NCBI RefSeq assembly: GCF_002287135.1
Contig: NZ_NESU01000004.1
Coordinates: 1-64,000, forward strand
Reading direction: 5' to 3'
DNA from: Helicobacter sp. TUL
Lineage (GTDB): Bacteria; Campylobacterota; Campylobacteria; Campylobacterales; Helicobacteraceae
DNA length: 64,000 nt
Both the position numbers and the translations under genes were made by a program. Positions 8,279-48,931 of the stretch are shown here, in pieces. The notes beneath the pieces were generated by a model. The model was not told the origin of the DNA. It saw nothing but the letters and a program-made list of their open reading frames with translations, and did not search any database. Within the stretch, counting starts at the first letter, position 1. The number at the start of each line of letters is the position of its first letter.

Positions 8279-9169
8279 TTATGGTAAAAGCGAAGTGTCT
8301 GTGGTATGGCTAGATTCTCTGTGGGGTTTCATCGTATGAGATTCTAAAAGCTCTTGGTAACACTCCTTGACATTTCTTTGTGTCAAATGCGCAAGAATCT
8401 TAGCCTTTGCTTTTGGCGCTATATCGAGTGCTTCTACCTCGCTTAAACGCAAACTTGGTTCTTCCTTGCTTTCATCTACAAGGCATAGCACCCATTCTCC
8501 AAGAATCTTTGTCCTCTCTAATTGTCGCAAAATCTCTGTAGCATTACCAAAAAATCTTGCTTGGTGAATCTTGCTAAGCTCCTTGCATACGCACAAATAA
8601 GCATTTGGCAATACAATCTCTATGTCTTTTAGGCTTTGGAGGATTCTATGTGGGCTTTCATACCAAATACAAGGCACACCAAGCATGGCATAATGTCGGA
8701 GGATTTGCTGTCTTTGGGATTGCTTGTGTGGCAAAAAACCACCGAAGAAAAAGCCTTGAGATTCTATACCACTAGAGGCAAAACACACATTAAGGGCACT
8801 TGCACCGGGCAAGACATCATATGCTATGTCATGAGTGATACACCATTGCACAAGTTTCGCACCCGGATCACTGATAGTGGGCATACCCGCATCACTCAAA
8901 TATACGACATTTTGACTAAAAAATTCCCGATCAAAAGTCTCTAATATGTGTTCTTCGTTATGAGAATGTAGTGAAATAAAACGTTTATGAGAGAGTGCTA
9001 CTGAATCTAGTAAATCACCAAAAAGCGATCGCTCCAAAAGTAGCGTATAGAGTTTTTTTGTTATGCGTGTATCTTCACACAACACAACTTGAGCTTGTGC
9101 TAGAGCCTGTAAACTCCTAAGGCTAATGTCTAAAAGATTACCAATAGGGGCTGGGAGGATCGTAAGCAC
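8279..9169 (-). CDS. rsmI: 16S rRNA (cytidine(1402)-2'-O)-methyltransferase
   Basis: A tetrapyrrole-methylase-fold enzyme acting on 16S rRNA C1402. Marks are the N-terminal LPAPIGNLLDISLRSLQAL, VLCEDTR, LSDAGMPTISDPG and the ASGIESQGFFFGGFLP region. The length of 296 agrees with the family. Translation appears to start at GTG with little visible ribosome site, 9 bases after the rpmE stop, so it may be coupled to rpmE. The C-terminal 30 residues (SHTMKPHRESSHTTD) are low-complexity and probably disordered. Confidence 0.92.
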   Translation of the reverse strand: MLTILPAPIGNLLDISLRSLQALAQAQVVLCEDTRITKKLYTLLLERSLFGDLLDSVALSHKRFISLHSHNEEHILETFDREFFSQNVVYLSDAGMPTISDPGAKLVQWCITHDIAYDVLPGASALNVCFASSGIESQGFFFGGFLPHKQSQRQQILRHYAMLGVPCIWYESPHRILQSLKDIEIVLPNAYLCVCKELSKIHQARFFGNATEILRQLERTKILGEWVLCLVDESKEEPSLRLSEVEALDIAPKAKAKILAHLTQRNVKECYQELLESHTMKPHRESSHTTDTSLLP

Positions 9170-9178
9170 AACACAGAA

Positions 9179-9382
9179 TTATTTGAGATTATACTTTTGG
9201 CGGAACTTCTCTACTCTACCTGTCGCATCAGCGATTTTGTCACTTCCTGTATAAAATGGATGACAAAAACTTGAAATATCAACGCGAAGCTGTGGTTTAG
9301 TGCTTAATACTTCAATTTCTTTGCCACTTGTAACACAAGTTACCTTGCATGGAACATATTCTGGGTGAATACCTTTTTTCAT
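9179..9382 (-). CDS. rpmE: 50S ribosomal protein L31
   Basis: Ribosomal protein L31 of 67 residues, beginning MKKGIHPEY and ending in RVEKFRQKYNL. The ATG at 9382 is chosen because AGAGG lies about 7 bases upstream; an in-frame TTG two codons earlier is a less likely start. Zinc-type L31 has two cysteine pairs. Here there are CKVTC and then a single cysteine in SSFCHPFYTG, so one zinc ligand of the classical set is replaced by serine. It leads the rpmE-rsmI-rlmB block and has its own promoter upstream. Confidence 0.95.
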   Translation of the reverse strand: MKKGIHPEYVPCKVTCVTSGKEIEVLSTKPQLRVDISSFCHPFYTGSDKIADATGRVEKFRQKYNLK

Positions 9383-9422
9383 CTCCAAACCTCTTTAAGA
9401 AATGTAGTTTTAAAAACTTGGG

Positions 9423-9428
9423 ATTGTA
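9423..9428 (-). promoter_or_regulatory. Extended -10 element for rpmE block
   Basis: On the minus strand the sequence reads TTGCTACAATCC: a TACAAT -10 box with the TGN extension typical of Helicobacter vegetative promoters, about 41 bases before the rpmE start. No matching -35 box is obvious, which is normal for this group. Confidence 0.45.
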
Positions 9429-9515
9429 GCAAAAAATTATTAAAAAACTTTTAAATTATCATTAAGAAAACGATAACCATACACAAGTTACAATCACTCT
9501 AGATTCTAGCAAGGC

Positions 9516-9521
9516 TATAAA
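9516..9521 (+). promoter_or_regulatory. Possible -10 element for the SafE-like gene
   Basis: TATAAA lies 28 bases before the TTG start, which would place the transcript start near 9529, just upstream of the AAGG ribosome site. No -35 element is evident. Confidence 0.3.
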
Positions 9522-9548
9522 AATCACTTTGAAATTAAGGTAAGGCAT

Positions 9549-10286
9549 TTGCAATATTTTGATGTATTGAGTATTTTTAGTATCGCGTTTATTTCATCAC
9601 TAGGGCATTGCGTAGGTATGTGTGGAGGATTAGTTATCGCCTATACACGCGCCAAGATTCACAACCCCCACGCTCTAGCACATAATGCTTTTTTACATTT
9701 TTTATATGTCTGTGGGCGTGTGTGTATGTATATGCTTTTGGGAGCAATCTTTGGAAGTTTTGGTGCAATCTTTACACAAAATATGCATACCAAAGCCATT
9801 GTAGGCATATGCGTAGGTGCGCTCTTGCTTATCTTTGGGTTTGCATATTTGCTATTTCCAAAATTTTTGAGAATCTTTGAATTTTCTATCTTTCCTGCCA
9901 ATCCCACCCCACAAGATTCTACCAAAGATTCCACACACACACAATCCGCTAAAAAACATAGCTTTGTAATTTTTAGGCTTTTTACTTATTTGCTTGCATC
10001 ACGCTCCACATTATCATTTTTTTTACTAGGTATGTTAAATGGAATCCTGCCTTGTGGCATTGTGTATTTTTTTCTCATTAGCGCCATAGCAAGTGGCAAT
10101 GCTTTTGGTGGAGCTATGATAATGGGAATTTTTGGACTTGCAACTGCTTTTGTTATGTATCCATTTGCACTCTTTGCATCAAGTCTTATGCGTATCATAA
10201 AACCTGCAATTTTTAATACTTTGGCTGGGTTGTGTATGGTGGGTTATGGTGGCTGGGGAATCTTTAGCAATATCGCATTGCTTTAA
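9549..10286 (+). CDS. Sulfite exporter TauE/SafE-type (DsbD_2-like) membrane protein
   Basis: A polytopic inner-membrane protein of 245 residues with about six hydrophobic segments. The N-terminal motif SLGHCVGMCGGLV is the hallmark of the UreH/CcdA-like DsbD_2 group; the two cysteines may bind metal or carry thiol chemistry. A second inverted half contains GMLNGILPCGIVYFFL with another conserved cysteine-proline site. Such genes are often linked to cytochrome oxidase or copper handling, but no such neighbour is present. Translation probably starts at TTG, with AAGG 8 bases upstream; there is no ATG that retains the motif. A charged loop with TKDSTHTQSAKK separates the halves. Confidence 0.75.
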   Translation: MQYFDVLSIFSIAFISSLGHCVGMCGGLVIAYTRAKIHNPHALAHNAFLHFLYVCGRVCMYMLLGAIFGSFGAIFTQNMHTKAIVGICVGALLLIFGFAYLLFPKFLRIFEFSIFPANPTPQDSTKDSTHTQSAKKHSFVIFRLFTYLLASRSTLSFFLLGMLNGILPCGIVYFFLISAIASGNAFGGAMIMGIFGLATAFVMYPFALFASSLMRIIKPAIFNTLAGLCMVGYGGWGIFSNIALL

Positions 10287-38550: not shown

Positions 38551-40038
38551 TTAAATTTTATTTGCATTCATAATATTTATACACCTTTGATACACGCTTT
38601 TATTGTTTATAATGACAATTGTTAACTCTTTCTTGGTTCTTGTAATAGCTTGAAAAAGCGTTTCAATTGGAGGATAATGAGATGCTGCTTTATACTGAAG
38701 TTTGTTATCCTGTGTATAGTAAAAGTCTTGAGTGATTGCCACTACAACCCTATCATATTCTTGTCCTATAGCTTGATGTGCGCTTGTCTTAGAATTAAAT
38801 CTTATGGCATCTAAGTTCTCTTCTGTAAATAAACTTGTTGAAAGATAAATATATTTCCAATCATTGCTTTCTAGATAATCTATGTATCTCCCTGCTTCTT
38901 GTATATCTTCTGTATAGAAAATAGATATATTTTTATAGTCCTGTCCTGTCAAATTATCACCTTTTAATTTATTAAAATCAAATAGCTTCCTGATAAAAGA
39001 ATACAATTCTTTATTGTGTCTAATTTTGTTTGTTAATTCAGAGCGAATTTTTGCTTTTTGCTTAATTTTTCCGACCACTTCCTCAGCATTGTTCTTTTTA
39101 TTAAGTCTTTGTCTCACATCATGTGAAAAAATAAGTATGCTTTCACTTAATTGCTCAAAAATATCATCAATTTCATTACCGATACGCTGTGCTTCATCAA
39201 AAATTACGACATCATATTTGACATTATTATTTTTTAATAGACTATTAAAATCTTTAATTGAAACGATATTCATGCCATTATCGTTTAATTTATGAACACC
39301 ATCATTTATCAAGGCACAATGAACTACGATTACTTTATAATTCTCACGTATAAGTGTTCTTGCAATATCATAAGTTAGTAGTGTTTTCCCTGTTCCAGCA
39401 CTGCCTGAAATTGAAAATATTTTATGTTTGTCTATATTTGTTATAATTCTCTTTTTAATCCCCTCTTGATGATCTGTAAGAAAGTATTGCTCATTTAAAA
39501 ATTCAATAGTATTATTAAAAGGAGAAACTAAGTATCGTGTTGGCACAAACAACTGATCTAGATGCTTGTTTACATCATCCATGTTTGCTATAATGTCTAG
39601 CATCTTTTTTATAGTTATATCAACAATACTTTTTGATTGATTATTGTAATAGTAAAATTGTTGCTTACTAGCAATAAAAACATAACAATATACTTTATCT
39701 CTTATTGCTGATAAATAATAATAATTTCTTTGAAGCTGCTTTACAATCTTATCCTCTTTAATTTCTTCATGTTTTAATTCTATATTTACAACAGCATTGC
39801 TTCCAATTTTTAGCAAATCGAATTCTTTACCAATTTGTGGTATCTGATAGCCAACATAATAATTTTCAAAAATTTGTAATTCTGAAGAGCTCTTTTTCAT
39901 AAGATTGCATAAAATATTAATATCTTCCAATTCATGTTTTTTGCACTTTGCAATATTCAAACAATGAGTCACATTTGCTTTATCTACCAAACCATATTTA
40001 ATTATATTGGCAAGATTTAATAGGTTTTGTTTAGACAT
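38551..40038 (-). CDS. Nuclease-helicase fusion (PD-(D/E)XK-like N terminus, DUF2075-type SF1 ATPase)
   Basis: A 495-residue protein of two parts. The N-terminal third looks like a PD-(D/E)XK nuclease: D74 in GKEFDLLKIG followed by E87-L-K89 in NIELKHEE. The rest is a superfamily 1 ATPase: Walker A GSAGTGKT at 212-219, DEAQR at 281-285, the later QAIGQEYDRVVVAI and the C-terminal QAITRTKKELTIVI arginine-finger region. Such proteins are common in defence islands, usually of unproven role. It starts one base after the stop of the small nuclease gene, so it belongs to the same operon as the R-M pair. It is low in the AGATTC word, in keeping with foreign origin. Confidence 0.75.
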   Translation of the reverse strand: MSKQNLLNLANIIKYGLVDKANVTHCLNIAKCKKHELEDINILCNLMKKSSSELQIFENYYVGYQIPQIGKEFDLLKIGSNAVVNIELKHEEIKEDKIVKQLQRNYYYLSAIRDKVYCYVFIASKQQFYYYNNQSKSIVDITIKKMLDIIANMDDVNKHLDQLFVPTRYLVSPFNNTIEFLNEQYFLTDHQEGIKKRIITNIDKHKIFSISGSAGTGKTLLTYDIARTLIRENYKVIVVHCALINDGVHKLNDNGMNIVSIKDFNSLLKNNNVKYDVVIFDEAQRIGNEIDDIFEQLSESILIFSHDVRQRLNKKNNAEEVVGKIKQKAKIRSELTNKIRHNKELYSFIRKLFDFNKLKGDNLTGQDYKNISIFYTEDIQEAGRYIDYLESNDWKYIYLSTSLFTEENLDAIRFNSKTSAHQAIGQEYDRVVVAITQDFYYTQDNKLQYKAASHYPPIETLFQAITRTKKELTIVIINNKSVYQRCINIMNANKI

Positions 40039-40569
40039 TTAATTGCTTTCTATCATTGGCAACCCAAGTTTTTGCAGTGGAATGTAATTAAAATAATACT
40101 GACATCGCACACTAATAATATAATCTAACACATCTTTATATTCAGGCTTTCTAAACCAATCATTTAAGAGATAAATATATTCCACCTCAACATTTGCTCT
40201 AGAAAATAACTTTTGGTATTGCTTTTTCTTAAAATCACAAGTTTGCAGTTTCTCGTCCGCAGATCCTTCTACACTTTGAAATTTACATTCAATAATATGC
40301 AAAGTATTATTAATGATTACATAAATACTATCATCAGGCAAAAGTTTTCTAGAAATGCACTCTTTCCAATTAATGTCTAATTCTTTTAAAAAATCATAAA
40401 GTTTGTGCTTTTTAAAAATCCTTGCTATTTTTTTATTGTTAAAAAATACCTCTTGCTTTTCGTTTATTGCATAGTCTTCTTGTTGTGATATAAACATTGC
40501 TAAATCAACTTGCCCCTCAAAAATTAATCCAGTTTGTGTATTGCCTCCACCCATTCCACCTTGTATCAC
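40039..40569 (-). CDS. Small PD-(D/E)XK endonuclease-like protein beside GATC R-M
   Basis: A 176-residue protein starting with GGMGGGNTQTGLIFE, a glycine-rich N terminus seen in some short restriction-endonuclease-like proteins. The catalytic pattern is visible: PDD at 78-80, then IIECK at 92-96, followed by SVEGSADEKLQT, together a classic PD-X13-E-X-K nuclease core. Its start overlaps the methyltransferase stop by 4 bases and it ends one base before the helicase gene. It could be a second restriction enzyme, or the effector of the nuclease-helicase. I cannot name its target. Confidence 0.7.
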   Translation of the reverse strand: MIQGGMGGGNTQTGLIFEGQVDLAMFISQQEDYAINEKQEVFFNNKKIARIFKKHKLYDFLKELDINWKECISRKLLPDDSIYVIINNTLHIIECKFQSVEGSADEKLQTCDFKKKQYQKLFSRANVEVEYIYLLNDWFRKPEYKDVLDYIISVRCQYYFNYIPLQKLGLPMIESN

Positions 40570-41384
40570 AATAATCCTTTTATATTTAAATCTTTTATTT
40601 TTGAATATATGGTTTTAAAATTATTTTCTAACTCCATTTTTCTTTTTATAGATATATCTATAAATTCATTTTCTTTCTCTATACCTATAAATCTTCTTTT
40701 AAGCAAATTTGCTGCAATTCCAGTGGTAGAGCTCCCGCTAAATGGATCGCAAATTACAGAATCCCCATTGCTTGCCATTAAAATTAAACGTGCAAGCAAA
40801 GCAAGAGGTTTTTGCGTAGGATGCTTACCATTTACTTTTTCCCAAGGAGCGATAGCAGGAAAAGTCCAAACATCTCGCATTTGTTTATTGTCATTTAATT
40901 GCTTTAAAAGTTCATAATTAAAAATATGTTTATGTTTAGCACTTTTTCTAGCCCAAATAACCTGTTCTGTAGAATGCGTAAGATACCTACAACTAAAATT
41001 TGGCGGTGGATTAGTCTTTTGCCATGTAATGATATTTAGAATCTTAAAATCAAGCTTTTGCAAAATCCTACCAAGTGAAAAAATATTATGATAAGTTCCA
41101 CTAATAAGAATGCTACCGGTATCTTTCAATGCAAGCTTTGCATTTTGTATCCAAGTAAGATTAAAAGCATCTATTTCATCTATATTGTCGCCCTTATCCC
41201 ATTGCCCCTTATTTACGCTTACAATTTTTCCACTTTGAATACTCAAACCATCATTTGATAAAAAATAAGGTGGATCGGCAAATATCAAATCTATTTTGTC
41301 TCTAAAGCTTGGCAATATCTCATTGCAATCCCCTTGATAGAGAGAAAATAAAGCATCCTTACTAGCAAAAGTAGCATTAGACAT
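40566..41384 (-). CDS. DpnA/HpyIII-type adenine-N6 methyltransferase (GATC)
   Basis: A beta-class DNA methyltransferase of 272 residues that probably methylates adenine in GATC. The catalytic motif DPPY is at 37-40 (IDLIFADPPYFLSNDG). The stretch ITWQKTNPPPNFSCRYLTHSTE and NGKHPTQKPLALLARLI are very like DpnA of the DpnII system. The AdoMet-binding CDPFSGSSTTGIAA lies near 213-226. The ATG at 41384 is chosen for its AAAGG 8 bases upstream and an 8-base overlap with the endonuclease stop; a start 10 codons earlier is possible. H. pylori has a related GATC enzyme (HP0092). Confidence 0.88.
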   Translation of the reverse strand: MSNATFASKDALFSLYQGDCNEILPSFRDKIDLIFADPPYFLSNDGLSIQSGKIVSVNKGQWDKGDNIDEIDAFNLTWIQNAKLALKDTGSILISGTYHNIFSLGRILQKLDFKILNIITWQKTNPPPNFSCRYLTHSTEQVIWARKSAKHKHIFNYELLKQLNDNKQMRDVWTFPAIAPWEKVNGKHPTQKPLALLARLILMASNGDSVICDPFSGSSTTGIAANLLKRRFIGIEKENEFIDISIKRKMELENNFKTIYSKIKDLNIKGLL

Positions 41385-42216
41385 TTTTTTTAACCTTTGA
41401 TACAAATTCATCAATATTAGAGAGATTGTAAATTTCTACTTTTTTATAAGCCTCTGCTAGCTTATTTTTAGCTTCTAACCACCCCTTTCCATCTGTTATC
41501 CAGATAAATTCATATTCATCAAAAGTTTCAAATTTTACAACCAAATCTTGATAAGCTCTTGCAACTTCATTCAATTTACTTCCCCCACTTGTATAAAAAT
41601 TACATTCTATACAATAAGTTTTATCAGGAGTAAAAATTACAAAATCAAATTTTTTTACATCATCACCAAAAGTTTTATAAAGCTTTGAAAATTCACCAAT
41701 ATAAACTTGCTCTTTAAAATCTAAGCCTGCCTTTGTAAAAATATTACTTATTATAGCCTCCATCACACTACCACCACGATTTTTTCGTGCATTTGTGTCA
41801 AGACCAACTTCTATCCCAAAAACAAAATCGTTTAAATCTTTTATTTTCCTATCGCTAAAAATTTTATCCAACCCACTTTCACAAATAAACTTATAAATTT
41901 TTTGCGGTTCTGTTAGATAAGAATTCATATCACACACTTTATTATTCTCATCCAACAATTGCTCATTACTAGACTTTCTAATAGCAATTAACAAAGGCAA
42001 TACTTGAAAAGCTTTAGGATACTCATCAAACAACACTGTAATCTTTTCTTGCAATTCACATTGCTGCACACCGAGCAGAAAATTAAGATGATTGAGTGAA
42101 ATTTTTACTTTATCTACATTTTGTATACATTTTTCCCAATCTACATAAAAATCAAGAGCTCTATTCGTGGGTTGCAAAGAACTGACAAAATCATCAAAAC
42201 ATAATACATTCTTCAT
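41377..42216 (-). CDS. DpnII-family type II restriction endonuclease (GATC)
   Basis: Cleaves unmethylated GATC, by homology to R.DpnII. 279 residues. The similarity is strong in GIEVGLDTNARKNRGG (134-149), FDFVIF (190-195), YCIECNFYTSGGSKLNEVAR (201-220) and FIWITDGKGW. The putative catalytic residues are D191 and E204. It precedes the methyltransferase in the transcript, and only 18 bases lie between the distal copy of the guaA-end repeat and its start codon. Without the DUF262 insertion it would sit directly behind guaA. Confidence 0.9.
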   Translation of the reverse strand: MKNVLCFDDFVSSLQPTNRALDFYVDWEKCIQNVDKVKISLNHLNFLLGVQQCELQEKITVLFDEYPKAFQVLPLLIAIRKSSNEQLLDENNKVCDMNSYLTEPQKIYKFICESGLDKIFSDRKIKDLNDFVFGIEVGLDTNARKNRGGSVMEAIISNIFTKAGLDFKEQVYIGEFSKLYKTFGDDVKKFDFVIFTPDKTYCIECNFYTSGGSKLNEVARAYQDLVVKFETFDEYEFIWITDGKGWLEAKNKLAEAYKKVEIYNLSNIDEFVSKVKKNV

Positions 42217-42233: not shown

Positions 42234-42268
42234 TTCCCTACTCCCACTCAATCGTGCCTGGTGGTTTG
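42234..42268 (-). repeat. Distal copy of the 35-bp guaA-end direct repeat (putative att site)
   Basis: Thirty-five bases here are identical to 46252-46286, which encode the last ten codons and stop of guaA plus seven bases beyond. On the minus strand this copy reads AAACCACCAGGCACG then ATTGAGTGGGAGTAG. Flanking bases on both sides differ from the guaA copy, so this is a bounded direct repeat and not a long duplication. It is the pattern left by site-specific integration at a gene 3' end. Confidence 0.85.
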
Positions 42269-42315
42269 AGACAGAATTTGATTTGCAAGTTCTATGCTTT
42301 GATTTAGAAAGTGGT

Positions 42316-44529
42316 TCATTTGATAACTCTGTCCTCATCAATTAACTTTAAAATTCTATCAAATTCATTAAAAATATTACTGCCTTTTTCAAGATTGATT
42401 GGATATTCTTTTTCGTCAAAGTAAATCTTTGATTCCATACTATTGCATAAAACTTCCATATCATCTAAAGAAAAATGTGGTGACAAATCAAATTTATCTC
42501 CATATTGTTTATCACCACATTCATAATCTGAAACTTTTAAACCTTTATCTTCACAATAGCAGTAGAAACCATAATCAAGCAAATCTTTTACATTTGTTAT
42601 ATTTCTTAAACCGGGTAAAAGTTCAACCTTATTAACACTATACTCCAGATAGAAGTATCGGATTCTAGAATATCTTTGAAAAGTCTCTTTTCTCTCATTA
42701 AGGAAATCAAATAGTGCTGACTCTCCAATTAAAAGTTGCTCCCACCATTCTTTTTGTGATAAATCAGTTTTTTGTTCAATTATCTCTTGCATTTTATCGA
42801 TTAAATTTTTACCTTTGCACTCTAGCAAAGTGTCTAAAAACTGCTTGAAATAAGGCCAATTTGAATCATTTTTATCTCCTTTAAGAATCCAATTTAAGGC
42901 TTCCCTATCTCTAAAAATATCATAGGGGGAATTGCCATAAAAGTAATTTGTATAAGAAAAACTAAAATCCCCTATACATAAAAAGGCTCTTTGAAAAAGC
43001 GTAAGATTCTTATCTAAAAATCCCTCCTTATCTAAAATTTGCATTGTTATATTCGCATATTGCTGAAATTTATATAGGTTTGGTTGTTTTAAAAATTCGG
43101 ATTTTTTGCTATAAGATTCAAAATCAAACTCTTCATCACTAAAATCAAGGAGGAAATCCACCCAACCTTTTAAAATTTTATGCTCACTTGTCTGGTTGAG
43201 TATTTCCTCCCAATTTTCTCCTCCCTCACGACTAGCCAAAATCAGTTTTGCTTTTCTTGCTTCTAAATGGTAAATATTGGAATGAAAACTATGTGTAGGA
43301 CTATTTGCTAAAAATTGATAAATATTTTGATGTCCTTGCGAGAGATGTTTAAATAATCTAAAAAATTGGGGTATATGCTCTTCTGGTTTATCAAGGCGAT
43401 GATTTTCAATAAAATGCCTACACACTCTTAAATAATCATTAAATGCAGATTTATCAATATTCTCTACCTCTATATTTTCTTTCATAAAAAATAAAATAGA
43501 GAAAAAATAGCAAATATCTGGATAGCTCAATATTTTATCAAAAAAATAGGAATCCTTTATTTTTAAAGCTTCCTTAATTTCTAGAGTATCAAATAAAATA
43601 CATAAATTGATTACCCTATTAAGTAATTTGATATTCTCGATATCCTGCAAAGGTTTATAAAATTCATTTACCTGCTGATTAGGATTTTCAATAGCTTTTT
43701 TAATATCTTTAGATTCTATTTCCTCCCTTTCTAATGCAAAAAAGAGAGTAGCATAATGAAGGAAATTACACCCTCGTGTATCAAACTTTTCTGGATTTTT
43801 ACTATCAAAGAAATAATCACTCCAATTGGTATCTATATTCTTTAAAAGTTCTTGTTCTTTAGAGATTTTAGAATCTTTTTCAATAAAAGACTTAAGGTTT
43901 TCATATTTACTAAGCTGTTTGCCTCTTGCATTCATTTTGATATATAGCTCTTCACCAAGCTCAAACTTCCCCATATCAAATAAATCAAAGGTGATACTAT
44001 CTAGATTTTCCACAAGTTTTTGAATATCTTTTTTATTCTCAACTATTTCAAAGATTAAATCAAGCATATTTAGCATTGCTTTAATAGTGGGGTCATTATT
44101 GAGATTTTCTGCTTTCTCAAACTCCCCACCTTTATTCCTAATAGCTTCACTTGGTTTTTTGTTTAAATCAAAGTCTTTTTGCAATAAATTTTTGCAAAAA
44201 TTTGCAGAGCTTGTGCGCGTGTTGTAAGAAAACTTTTTCAACAAATCTTTTATTTGCTCCAAACAATCTGCTTTTTTATAAAGGTAAAAATGTAATAACC
44301 AAAGCGTTGTAATACGCTGTTGTCCATCAATGAGCAAAAATTTATCATTTTCTTGGTAGCCATAAATAAAATCGATATGTAAGGATTGCCTTTTGCCGTT
44401 TAATACATTAAAGATTGCAGATAAAAACTCATTGGCAATTTTACTTTGAGACTTTCTGCCCTGTGCGTAGTCTCTTTGTAATATAGGAATTTCAATTCTA
44501 TATTTTTCTAGCAATTCTTTGAGATTCAT
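42316..44529 (-). CDS. DUF262 (GmrSD-like) protein, large partner
   Basis: A 737-residue protein whose N terminus is a DUF262/ParB-like NTPase domain: IPILQRDYAQG at 14-24 and IDGQQRITTLW at 67-77, the defining motif of the GmrSD/DndB-like fold. FELGEELYIKMNARGKQLSKYE (near 190-215) is the second DUF262 signature. The C-terminal half is helical and lacks an obvious HNH (DUF1524) motif, in contrast to its partner. The gene starts inside the stop of the upstream DUF262 gene (4-base overlap). A defensive role against modified or phage DNA is likely from family and context, but unproven. Confidence 0.82.
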   Translation of the reverse strand: MNLKELLEKYRIEIPILQRDYAQGRKSQSKIANEFLSAIFNVLNGKRQSLHIDFIYGYQENDKFLLIDGQQRITTLWLLHFYLYKKADCLEQIKDLLKKFSYNTRTSSANFCKNLLQKDFDLNKKPSEAIRNKGGEFEKAENLNNDPTIKAMLNMLDLIFEIVENKKDIQKLVENLDSITFDLFDMGKFELGEELYIKMNARGKQLSKYENLKSFIEKDSKISKEQELLKNIDTNWSDYFFDSKNPEKFDTRGCNFLHYATLFFALEREEIESKDIKKAIENPNQQVNEFYKPLQDIENIKLLNRVINLCILFDTLEIKEALKIKDSYFFDKILSYPDICYFFSILFFMKENIEVENIDKSAFNDYLRVCRHFIENHRLDKPEEHIPQFFRLFKHLSQGHQNIYQFLANSPTHSFHSNIYHLEARKAKLILASREGGENWEEILNQTSEHKILKGWVDFLLDFSDEEFDFESYSKKSEFLKQPNLYKFQQYANITMQILDKEGFLDKNLTLFQRAFLCIGDFSFSYTNYFYGNSPYDIFRDREALNWILKGDKNDSNWPYFKQFLDTLLECKGKNLIDKMQEIIEQKTDLSQKEWWEQLLIGESALFDFLNERKETFQRYSRIRYFYLEYSVNKVELLPGLRNITNVKDLLDYGFYCYCEDKGLKVSDYECGDKQYGDKFDLSPHFSLDDMEVLCNSMESKIYFDEKEYPINLEKGSNIFNEFDRILKLIDEDRVIK

Positions 44530-46196
44530 TTATTCTCCTTTGTGTATCTTTTTAAAGACTCTTTGATAGCTGCAAGATAATCCTCTTGGTCTTTTTGCTC
44601 AAAAATATCAGGATTACTCTTGTTTTCAGAAAATACTTTTTCAAACACTTTTCTTGTAGCAATGGGAATGAGTTTGTCCTGTTCGCCGAGTTTCTGTATT
44701 GCTTTGCGTTTTTGACTAAATATTTGATTGCCAATTCGACTATTTGAATCTTTGTCAAGCAATGTGAGATTTTGGATTGTATGTAAAGTTTCATCGTTTT
44801 TAAAATTGTCATTAATTTCATTAAATAATTCATCGGCAAAATTAGATTCTTTGATGCTTTGTTTAATTTCTTGCTTGAGCTTATCATCATCAATGTATAA
44901 TAAAGTTTCCTCAAGCCATTGAGTAATACTTTCATTGTCTTTGCCTTTTATACTTTTAGAATTTTGAGCGTAAATATGCTCTAAACTCCATTGCTCCAGC
45001 ACAAAACGATTGAATTTAAAATATTCATTGGAACTTTCCTCACGAATAAGATATTCCAAATTAAAAAGTAAGAGAATCTCTTTTATTTTTGCATTATCTT
45101 TTTTATACCGTAGTTGCTCCATATTTTCAATCTTTGAAATTTTATTTTGAATTTTTGCTAAAAGCTTTTGCGAAAATAATTCTTTGTTGGTATAATTTTT
45201 CCATTCTTTATAGAGGGAATAAATATTTTCTCCACTTAAAATCAAAAATCCAAGATAGTGAAAAATTTCTCTATCTATTTTGTCATTCCCATCTCCACTT
45301 GCAAAGCCAGAGAGTGTACTGATTGCATTCTCTAACTCACTCCATTGGTCATTGAGTGTCCCATTTTTATAGCATTTGTAGAAATATTCAAACAAATAAT
45401 ACTTTTCTTTAGAATAGGGAACAAGTGATTTTAAATATGCCTCAATTCGTTGAATATCATCTTTTAGAATTTTGTTCTCTATATCTTCTTTCTCATTAAT
45501 TTTATTTAATACACAATATCTAAAATCCCTATTTTTTCTCGCTTCAATCTCGCTTTGATACCAAAGTTCTGCCCTACGTTTCAAATCATCGGAATCTAAT
45601 TCATCATTTTTACTCAAAAATAAGGCTTTAATATTTTCTGCTTCTTCTAAAGGGATTTTTCCAATATTCAGGCGAATAAAGACTTCATTTTCATTTTCTT
45701 TGGGGGCTATTTCATACCAGAGAACTTTACATTTATTGAGCAATGTCTTTAAGAATTCATCTTTATCAATGTTTTCATCTTTGAAAAATTTTTGTATAAC
45801 TTCATAGGCTTTATGAAAATGGTAAAAATCTATATTTTCAACTTCTTTTTTGCTTTTATCTTTGATATTTTTCAAAAAATCAGTGCTCTTGAGACGAGTT
45901 TTATAGGAAATATGAAAGAAATCTTTATTTTCAAGGAATTTTATGATTAAAAATATTGTCGTTAATCTTTGTTGCCCATCAATGATTTGATATTCTTCTT
46001 TATTGTTTTTCACAACCACAGGCTGTAGGCAATAAAAATCAGGTTGATTCTGCATTTGTGCGAAATCACAAATATCTTGCAACAAAGCTTGAACTTCTCT
46101 TTCACCCCAGCGATACCCTCTTTGATAGCTTGGAACAATAAAGCTTTTGTCTTTTAAATCCTCAATGGCTCTTAAAGATTGATTTTCTTGATTCAT
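44526..46196 (-). CDS. DUF262-DUF1524 (GmrSD-like) protein, nuclease-bearing partner
   Basis: A 556-residue protein. The N-terminal DUF262 domain has VPSYQRGYRWGEREV at 21-35 and IIDGQQRLTTIF at 71-82, then NENEVFIRLNIGKIPLEEAENIKA near 168-191. The C terminus carries a DUF1524 HNH-like nuclease: WSLEHIYAQN at 403-412 and, about 75 residues later, NLTLLDKDSNSRIGN followed by FSQKRKAI. This is the type IV restriction (GmrSD, SspE-like) architecture. It is the first gene of the pair, 55 bases behind guaA. The pair is probably translated at a fixed ratio because of the ATGA overlap. Confidence 0.85.
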   Translation of the reverse strand: MNQENQSLRAIEDLKDKSFIVPSYQRGYRWGEREVQALLQDICDFAQMQNQPDFYCLQPVVVKNNKEEYQIIDGQQRLTTIFLIIKFLENKDFFHISYKTRLKSTDFLKNIKDKSKKEVENIDFYHFHKAYEVIQKFFKDENIDKDEFLKTLLNKCKVLWYEIAPKENENEVFIRLNIGKIPLEEAENIKALFLSKNDELDSDDLKRRAELWYQSEIEARKNRDFRYCVLNKINEKEDIENKILKDDIQRIEAYLKSLVPYSKEKYYLFEYFYKCYKNGTLNDQWSELENAISTLSGFASGDGNDKIDREIFHYLGFLILSGENIYSLYKEWKNYTNKELFSQKLLAKIQNKISKIENMEQLRYKKDNAKIKEILLLFNLEYLIREESSNEYFKFNRFVLEQWSLEHIYAQNSKSIKGKDNESITQWLEETLLYIDDDKLKQEIKQSIKESNFADELFNEINDNFKNDETLHTIQNLTLLDKDSNSRIGNQIFSQKRKAIQKLGEQDKLIPIATRKVFEKVFSENKSNPDIFEQKDQEDYLAAIKESLKRYTKENK

Positions 46197-46251
46197 TTTT
46201 ACCCTTTTATAATTTCTCTAAATTTTACAACAAAAATTGCAGCATATTACA

Positions 46252-46286
46252 TTCCCTACTCCCACTCAATCGTGCCTGGTGGTTTG
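46252..46286 (-). repeat. guaA-proximal copy of the 35-bp direct repeat (putative att site)
   Basis: Identical over 35 bases to 42234-42268. It covers the final guaA codons (KPPGTIEWE and stop), so guaA keeps a complete reading frame on this side. The strongly conserved C terminus of GMP synthase explains why it can serve as a stable target. Confidence 0.85.
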
Positions 46287-48931
46287 GAAGTAATGTCATA
46301 CACCACGCGGTTTATGCCCTCTACTTCATTAATGATACGATTAGACACAGATTCTAAAAATTCGTGAGGCAAATGCGAAAAAGTCGCTGTCATTCCATCA
46401 AGCGCTTCTACTGCTCGCACACAAATTGTGTTATCATAGGTGCGGTTATCGCCCATTACCCCCACGCTTTTGACATTCAAAAGCACACAAAACGCTTGCC
46501 ACACGCTATCATATAGATTCCACTTATGCAACTCTTCTATAAAAATGCAATCCGCTTCTTTCAAAAGATCCAAATCCGCTTGATTGACTTCTCCCATAAT
46601 ACGAATAGCAAGTCCTGGTCCTGGGAATGGGTGACGCATAAGCATAGATTCTGGCATACCAAGCTCTCGCCCCAAAGCCCTCACCTCATCTTTGAAAAGC
46701 TCCCTTAGTGGCTCGATTAGCTCAAATTTCATCCATTCAGGCAAGCCCCCTACATTGTGATGAGATTTTATCGTTTTGCTTGGTCCTTTTACGCTCACAG
46801 ATTCGATTACATCAGGATACAGCGTGCCTTGTGCGAGGAATTTTATCTCGCCATTAGCATTATGTTTTTTTGCCTCTCTTTCAAAAACCTTGATAAAAGT
46901 CTCACCGATGATTTTACGCTTACTCTCAGGATCTCGCACACCTTTAAGCAATCCCAAAAACTCTTCACTTGCATCAATGGTGATAAGTGGCACATGCAAG
47001 TTTTCTCTAAACATTTTCTCCACCGCTTCTCTCTCGCCTTTACGCAGAAGCCCAGTATCCACAAAAATAGGGATAAGGTTTTCCCCAATCGCACGATAAA
47101 GCAAGGTAGCTACGACGCTAGAATCCACCCCACCACTCACCGCACATAGCACCTTGTGAGGTTTAGCTTTTGGCGATACATCGTGGAGCTTGTTTTTTGC
47201 TTCGTCAATAGATGCTTTAGCCTTATCTGTATGCCCAAATGCACAGCTTGTCAAATGATCGCACACAAGCCCCACAGACTGCATAAAGGCATAAATCCCT
47301 GTGCTTCCTACAAAGCTAAAGCCTCGCTTTTTGAGATCATTTGCGATCGTATCAGAAAGTGGCGTATGTGTGGGAATCTCCTCCAAACTCTCGAAATGAT
47401 TGATAATTGGTGTATTATCTACATAATCCCAAAGAAACTTCGCAAAGCTCCCAAACTCACGCTCAATCTCTAAGAATCTTTTGGCATTGTTGATAGCAGA
47501 TTCTATCTTGGCACGATTGCGGATAATATCTGGATTTTCCATAAGTTCTTGTATCTTTGCCTCATCATAAGTGGCTACAATATGAGGATCAAAGTCATCA
47601 AAGGCTGCCCTAAAAGCCTCACGTTTTTTAAGTATCGTGATCCACGAAAGCCCTGCTTGCATACCCTCTAGCACAAGTTGCTCAAAAAGTCGCTTATCAT
47701 CGTGCTGTGGAATGCCCCACTCAAAGTCATGATAATCTTGATAAAGTTTTTGTGTGGCTTTATCAGAGGCATCATACCCTCGGTAAATCCAACCGCATCG
47801 TTGTAGTGGCTGTGTAGTCGTCGCTACATAATCCAAAGCTAACTCCACCATATCACCACATACCGCACCTTTTTCAAAACCAAGTTCGCTAAAAACCTTT
47901 AGCCCCTTTTTGTCGTGTGTATCCCATTGTGTGTGGAAGCTCTGTGCATTTTCAAATTGCATAAGCGTATCTAAAAAAGATTGCACTACTTCTTTTTGTG
48001 TTAGATTCCTATCGATGATATAACACTCAAAATTGCACCGATAGCCGCTTGTATCCTCTACATACACACAAAAGCCAAAGGCACTTACATTTCCTACATC
48101 ATCTTTTCTAGCAAAAAAATGCTCTGAATTATGAATGCGTTGTTTTAGCGTCGTGGCAATATGCTCTAATAATTTTGCTCCCATAAATCCGTGTGCTTTT
48201 GTGAAGCTCTCTTGCCATAGGGCAAAAATTTGCTCTTGTTGCGCACAATCCTTGGTGCGTTGGAATGTGGGTGTTTGGGATAGTATCCCTGTGATTTTAC
48301 GAATCTTATCTATCTCATAGGTGATAAAATTTTTCATATTCCAGCTTGTGTCTGCTCTGCAAATATTCACCGCGAAATTTTTGAGAATCTCCCCACCACA
48401 CTCGCTATGCACGACTTCAGGGTGAAACTGCAAGGCATAGATTTGACGCTTTGTGTCTGCTATGGCGCAATAATGTGTATTGACACTTTTGGCTAATTCA
48501 CTAAAGCCTTGCGGAATTTTTTCTACCTTATCAGCGTGACTCATCCACACAATAGAATTATTTTTGACATTTGCAAAAAGTGCTGTATCAGGAGCTAGAA
48601 TCTCTAATTGTGCCTTGCCAAACTCCTGCTCTTTGGCTCGCACCACCGCACCGCCAAAATGATACGCGATATATTGCATACCATAACAAATCCCAAGCAC
48701 AGGAATGCCAAGCTCAAAGACTTTGTTATCAGGCTTATACGCTCCCTCCTCATACACACTCGCAGGACCGCCACTTAAAATAATGCCCTTAGGATTCTTA
48801 GCCTTGATAGAATCTATGCTTTCAAAATAAGGCACGATCTCGGTATAAACGCCAAACTCCCGAAGTCTCCTAGCGATAAGCTGCGTGTATTGACTCCCAA
48901 AGTCAAGCACTAACATTTCAACATTATTCAT
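46256..48931 (-). CDS. guaA: GMP synthase with inserted GNAT-like and Tag (3-methyladenine glycosylase I) domains
   Basis: Makes GMP from XMP and glutamine, but is 891 residues against the usual 510-525. The glutaminase domain (1-195) has C82 (GICYGMQ) and H170/E172. The ATP-pyrophosphatase domain (about 572-891) has SGGVDSS at 599-605 and the normal dimerisation tail. Between them, within the linker, lie about 360 extra residues. Residues 215-375 look like a GNAT acetyltransferase fold ([13 protein letters not shown] and FSELGFEKG). Residues 377-571 are a complete Tag glycosylase: [37 protein letters not shown], and the zinc ligands C379, H401, H559 and C563, with E422 as the base-excision glutamate. 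All active residues of the three recognisable enzymes are intact. H. hepaticus also has an oversized GMP synthase, so this is likely a lineage trait. Confidence 0.92.

Follow-up and report, generated by a model that had tools for sequence, protein, structure and literature searches.

How restriction systems without a recombinase move in Helicobacter, and why they pile up at certain sites, is an old question. It is raised again by the 3' end of guaA, the GMP synthase gene, in a stretch of 64,000 nucleotides of Helicobacter sp. TUL (assembly GCF_002287135.1, contig NZ_NESU01000004.1, positions 1 to 64,000), here called the window. An exact 35-bp copy of the end of guaA lies downstream of the gene, and two overlapping DUF262 genes stand between gene and copy. 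A first-pass annotation compared this arrangement to an integrase-less island flanked by attachment (att) sites. In this study, comparison with other genomes leads us to a different reading: the repeat pair is probably the mark of a restriction cassette in an array at the guaA end, moved by homologous recombination of its tail with the guaA end. By cassette we mean one restriction or restriction-modification operon with the tail that follows it, a tail being a duplicate of the 3'-terminal part of guaA.

The repeat pair and the DUF262 unit

The 35-mer TTCCCTACTCCCACTCAATCGTGCCTGGTGGTTTG is present in two copies, 42234-42268 and 46252-46286, with 0 mismatches. An exact match and a comparison of the flanks, which differ, uphold what had been reported of it. 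Allowing three mismatches revealed no further copy in the window, and shuffled sequence contained none. The first-pass annotation had asked whether the repeat occurs widely in the genome; the 22-base core, at up to two mismatches, has two sites only in the whole 1.7 Mb. Genome-wide uniqueness and the shuffles rule out a chance origin. The locus, read from guaA outwards, comprises the following features.

46256-48931, minus strand: guaA, GMP synthase, 891 amino acids (Pfam GATase, Adenine_glyco, NAD_synthase, GMP_synt_C)
46252-46286, minus strand: guaA-proximal 35-bp copy, containing the last 9 sense codons, the stop and 4 bases after the stop (exact match)
44526-46196, minus strand: DUF262-1, GmrSD-type, DUF262 plus DUF1524/HNH (Pfam GmrSD_N and GmrSD_C)
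42316-44529, minus strand: DUF262-2, second GmrSD_N protein, 4-base overlap with DUF262-1 (Pfam GmrSD_N)
42277-42319, minus strand: 5' stub of an R.Tsp45I-type endonuclease, first 14 codons, 43 nt (aligned with intact R.Tsp45I of G001, G095, G116 and G019 and with G097)
42269-42276, minus strand: 8-nt filler TTCTGTCT at the stub/tail junction, matching neither partner
42234-42268, minus strand: guaA tail closing the DUF262 unit, 35-bp copy of the guaA 3' end (exact copy)

DUF262-1 has both the N-domain and the DUF1524/HNH C-domain, and DUF262-2 has GmrSD_N only; judged by family, both are predicted modification-dependent restriction enzymes. That two overlapping DUF262 genes lie between the copies is correct, but a third item had been missed, the Tsp45I remnant. 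The start of this stub falls inside the DUF262-2 stop codon (ATGA overlap), and the remainder of R.Tsp45I and its methyltransferase are missing from the unit. In G097 the order behind guaA is intact: DUF262-1, DUF262-2, R.Tsp45I, M.Tsp45I. Given the stub and this order, the pair is not a complete unit but the front half of a cassette, DUF262-1/DUF262-2/R.Tsp45I/M.Tsp45I, that has been truncated. A deletion would have removed the R.Tsp45I/M.Tsp45I part, fusing R.Tsp45I at codon 14 with the terminal 35 bp of a tail, and the perfect repeat is probably what this deletion left of a longer tail. G001, the closest sampled relative by purF, carries R/M.Tsp45I and a tail behind its guaA.

Up to the stop codon, the window tail matches at 31 of 31 positions only its own guaA; the others among the 34 guaA ends compared match at 25-30. 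The guaA locus carries a DUF262-1 orthologue in H. cholecystus (86%) and H. japonicus (90%), and in both species the pair sits behind guaA; DUF262-2 orthologues are found in G025, G026 and G087 (86%) and in G097 (63%). This patchy distribution, together with the varying occupants of the site, agrees with the earlier view of the pair as a foreign unit bounded by guaA-end copies.

Tailed cassettes in the Helicobacteraceae

A search with the GuaA C-terminus (E<=1e-3) revealed extra guaA-end fragments in 14 of 111 Helicobacteraceae genomes, a count that includes G113, where guaA is possibly split between contigs. DNA comparison revealed more tails than this search. The tails measure 24 to about 300 bp and differ at their 5' ends, and all finish at the guaA stop codon. 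The operon in front of each tail is single and short, and in most cases encodes a type II restriction-modification pair. The cassettes lie directly behind guaA and in its orientation: the next gene is co-directional in all 34 cases after guaA and in 28 of 30 after tails, with a median gap of 6-8 nt. The maximum, four intact tandem cassettes, occurs in G095 in the order guaA, R/M.Tsp45I, tail, methyltransferase/HNH, tail, C5-methyltransferase/R.HaeII, tail, methyltransferase/R.CfrBI, tail. Judged by these comparisons, guaA-tail restriction cassettes are widespread in the Helicobacteraceae and the guaA 3' end is a putative recombination target. The insertion hotspot suspected there is confirmed in that tailed cassettes recur behind guaA in relatives.

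When the PurF C-terminus served as control query, none of 102 genomes showed a convincing extra fragment, although this control is less sensitive than the guaA search because purF is less conserved; with that reservation, it speaks against a general duplication of gene ends. An order-wide occurrence of the arrays is not supported either, as extra fragments outside the Helicobacteraceae are few and several represent a guaA split between contigs. The sampled genomes of genus g7, mostly complete and of ~1.6 Mb, which probably represent the H. pylori group, gave no extra guaA-end fragments. G210, from another family of the same order, carries the Eco57I-like cassette described below, 4 bp behind the guaA stop, as well as a Tsp45I methyltransferase remnant and a guaA tail (L133).

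Breakpoints and composition of the tails

The Eco57I-like methyltransferase cassette has an identical left edge, just after the guaA stop, and an identical tail breakpoint in five genomes of several genera. The TdeIII R cassette keeps a breakpoint of its own in three genomes, and the PabI R cassette keeps another, different from that of TdeIII, also in three. Since a cassette keeps its breakpoint across genera, the tail travels with the cassette. In the Eco57I-like cassette the tail has taken the place of the end of the methyltransferase gene, in frame, and the enzyme therefore ends in GuaA sequence; its relative in G210 has a different, unfused end.

Within a tail, similarity changes partner. 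The first 36 nt of the tails of G003 and G020, which belong to different genera, are 97% identical to each other and 75% and 83% identical to their own guaA, whereas the last 37 nt are 97% and 97% identical to their own guaA and 76% to each other. A similar switch is seen in the DpnII tails of G062 and G123, where the 3' part in G123 matches its own guaA, and in a tail of G210, where the final 53 nt reach 96% similarity to the guaA of that genome. The tails are thus, as far as these alignments go, mosaics of a 5' part from the cassette and a 3' part from the host guaA. Measured from the guaA end, the switch points are 37-73 nt upstream. They are upstream of and outside 5'-GAGTGGGA-3', the core of the site at the guaA 3' end at which the GIsul2 island integrates (PMC9376610).

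Exchange between genomes

G095 and G116, from different genera, share 7,935 bp at 99.7% identity, and their purF genes give only a 215 bp alignment at 68%. One edge of the shared block is 1.8 kb inside guaA. The other is at the stop codon of the third tail, which is TAG in one genome and TGA in the other, and beyond the block the genomes differ. A block of several cassettes has moved here between genera, and its form is the one that would be expected after a pair of homologous crossovers, one within guaA and the other within a tail. Less occupied sites in relatives, L044 against L098 and L103 against L100, give occupied/empty pairs with exact junctions of guaA end and tail.

The guaA block of the window is 94-97% identical to those of G063, G030 and G094 (L106, L107 and L108), members of another genus, and the PurF C-termini of the window genome and these three share only 56-58% protein identity; guaA itself seems to have been exchanged between genera. 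The GuaA C-terminus of G272 (L134), from another family, has 93% protein identity to that of the window, and an inter-family transfer is likely here. The window GuaA (46256-48931) also contains a complete DNA-3-methyladenine glycosylase I domain, amino acids 393-565, inserted between the halves of GMP synthase. Relatives have guaA open frames of up to about 1850-2290 amino acids, with inserts.

Proposed mechanism

We propose that incoming DNA carrying guaA, a cassette and a tail would enter the recipient in circular form or through natural transformation. RecA-type homologous recombination, with one crossover in guaA and one between the incoming tail and the recipient guaA 3' end, would place the new cassette in front of whatever already stood behind guaA and leave guaA intact. 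Repeated rounds would build an array, and recombination between tails would delete cassettes. Expression of the cassettes is probably by way of the guaA transcript, with GAGTGGGAG-stop (GAG-TGG-GAG-stop) at the end of guaA as a possible ribosome-binding site of the next gene. A broader proposal, to which we give about an even chance, is that the guaA 3' end would be an integrase-free, integron-like capture platform, its terminal codons serving both as homology tail and as translation start for the next cassette. Homologous recombination by itself would then suffice to capture and stack cassettes, which would be expressed from the guaA operon, and to exchange them between genera or even between families.

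Several points weigh against the account by homologous recombination. DNA uptake, recombination and RecA dependence are all deduced from sequence. The three placeable switch points all fall within about q378-414 of the guaA 3' end (q numbers count over the last 450 nt of guaA), a clustering that a site-specific enzyme could also explain. A uniquely conserved block as its cause is unsupported, the longest identical runs occurring in several places without concentration at q378-414. Some tails are closer to the guaA of other species than to that of their host, which we read as imported arrays. In the window, the deletion shows the 8-nt filler and no clear junction microhomology, and a tail of 35 bp is short for RecA-dependent exchange.

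Alternative explanations

The first-pass reading as an att-flanked island survives as a rival in which the cassettes are integrase-dependent islands mobilized in trans by a guaA-specific tyrosine recombinase, similar to that of GIsul2, encoded elsewhere or lost. The guaA 3' ends are known integrase targets (PMC9376610), GAGTGGGA or a near version of it is kept in most tails, the placeable switch points cluster and, as in integrase islands, the direct repeats lie at a gene 3' end with the gene intact. Unrelated integrase genes are present in the genomes. The earlier remark that no recombinase accompanies the DUF262 unit is extended by the absence of Phage_integrase matches near guaA, and hence near any array, in 16 genomes. 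As for the suggestion to look for a tyrosine recombinase elsewhere, G000 has two Phage_integrase matches, both on other contigs, one common to all six genomes of the genus, which by inference is XerH-like, and one other. Against a trans-acting integrase stand also the tails themselves, whose upstream reach from the guaA end varies between 24 and about 300 bp, in place of att repeats of one length with a crossover in a single core. Their mosaic switch points lie well upstream of the integrase core, and the G095/G116 block ends inside guaA on one side, 1.8 kb into the gene, and at a tail on the other. The genome-wide integrase search and the mosaic tails reduce this explanation to an unlikely one.

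Insertion with long target duplication in its original sense, in which the host guaA 3' end is duplicated anew each time and the cassette has no tail of its own, was described by Nobusato et al. (2000) for restriction-modification genes of H. pylori, according to citations in PMC4978471 and PMC1643837. Here too, restriction genes are bounded by long, variable repeats of the target, and many tails are most like the guaA of their own host, the window tail exactly so. As a general account it is already contradicted by the breakpoint that the same cassette keeps in different genera, and only the 3' parts of the tails are host-like, the 5' parts tracking the cassette; we regard it as improbable. 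It may nevertheless describe the first origin of a tail, as DpnII cassettes carry two different tails, one in G062 and G123 and the other in G078. That the window repeat is the scar of a local tandem duplication, with the DUF262 pair an ancestral neighbour of guaA, would fit a short and perfect repeat and an operon-like pair. It scarcely deserves belief: different genes follow guaA in all six sampled genomes of the genus, which answers the earlier doubt about ancestry; the sequence shared with G063, G030 and G094 extends no further than the guaA stop codon; and the pair, about 390 kb from guaA in G026, is patchy enough for an ancestral position to be excluded.

Relation to known systems

H. 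pylori already offers examples of restriction genes inserted with a long duplication of the target and of type II systems between repeats, and the guaA-tail arrays are a variant on them. Insertion of H. pylori restriction-modification genes with long target duplication (Nobusato et al., 2000, as cited in PMC4978471, PMC1643837 and PMC3031569) shares with the arrays Helicobacter restriction-modification genes, long and variable direct repeats of the target and the lack of an encoded recombinase. The guaA arrays differ in a target that, across many species, is always the 3' end of a single essential gene, in a repeat that is a tail carried by the cassette, in stacked insertions and in mosaics that point to recombination within tails. 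Six type II systems of H. pylori are flanked by direct repeats of 65-395 bp, with a single repeat in strains lacking them (PMC10423294). Loss by recombination between repeats and regain by transformation are possible in both cases, but each H. pylori locus has its own repeat, whereas the guaA arrays gather unrelated systems at one locus, in tandem, with one kind of repeat and across genera. GIsul2 likewise inserts at the guaA 3' end and leaves guaA intact, but it encodes an integrase and has a 19-bp att with an 8-bp core (PMC9376610), unlike the guaA arrays, which have no integrase and no att of fixed length. The arrays resemble integrons in their co-directional cassettes behind a fixed platform, each with its own terminal recombination sequence. 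They differ in having neither IntI nor attC: a tail consists of coding sequence from the end of guaA, a housekeeping gene, and recombination appears to be homologous. No description of guaA-tail arrays was found in the literature searched, a body that leaves most subscription papers outside.

The arrays offer a testable account of the movement and accumulation of recombinase-free restriction systems, in which a cassette carries a copy of a core-gene end and uses it as homology. The tails keep a record of insertion order and crossover points, and extra copies of core-gene 3' ends can be used as a search handle for such cassettes elsewhere.

The DpnII cassette and outlying features

Beyond the window tail lie a second cassette and an outer defence cluster.

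41377-42216, minus strand: R.DpnII, which opens the next cassette 17 bp after the tail (Pfam DpnII, E=1.5e-92)
40566-41414, minus strand: M.DpnII, N6-adenine methyltransferase (Pfam N6_N4_Mtase; PADLOC MTase_II)
40039-40569, minus strand: small PD-(D/E)XK-like open reading frame, outer defence cluster (weak Pfam PDDEXK_11)
38551-40038, minus strand: AbiO/Nhi-like superfamily 1 helicase, outer defence cluster (PADLOC AbiO 1.7e-148, Nhi 7e-147)

The DpnII pair is predicted from its families to be a type II system. A DpnII cassette stands behind guaA, directly or nearly so, in G005, G062, G123, G078, G109 and G074. The window DpnII operon is, by this comparison, a second guaA-end cassette, and the first-pass annotation was right to suppose at least two layers of insertion, because the DpnII cassette follows guaA in other species.

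Some cassettes lie away from guaA. In G074 (L122), positions 8540-10196 of a contig that does not carry the guaA gene contain a guaA tail alongside a diverged Tsp45I pair and a fragment from the interior of guaA (q16-73). On single contigs, a DUF262/Tsp45I cassette in G026 (L118, L119) and a Tsp45I cassette in G109 (L116, L117) each lie about 390 kb from guaA, and Tsp45I remnants or an M.Tsp45I copy are still found near guaA in these two genomes. An inversion or relocation linked to the array is possible in both.

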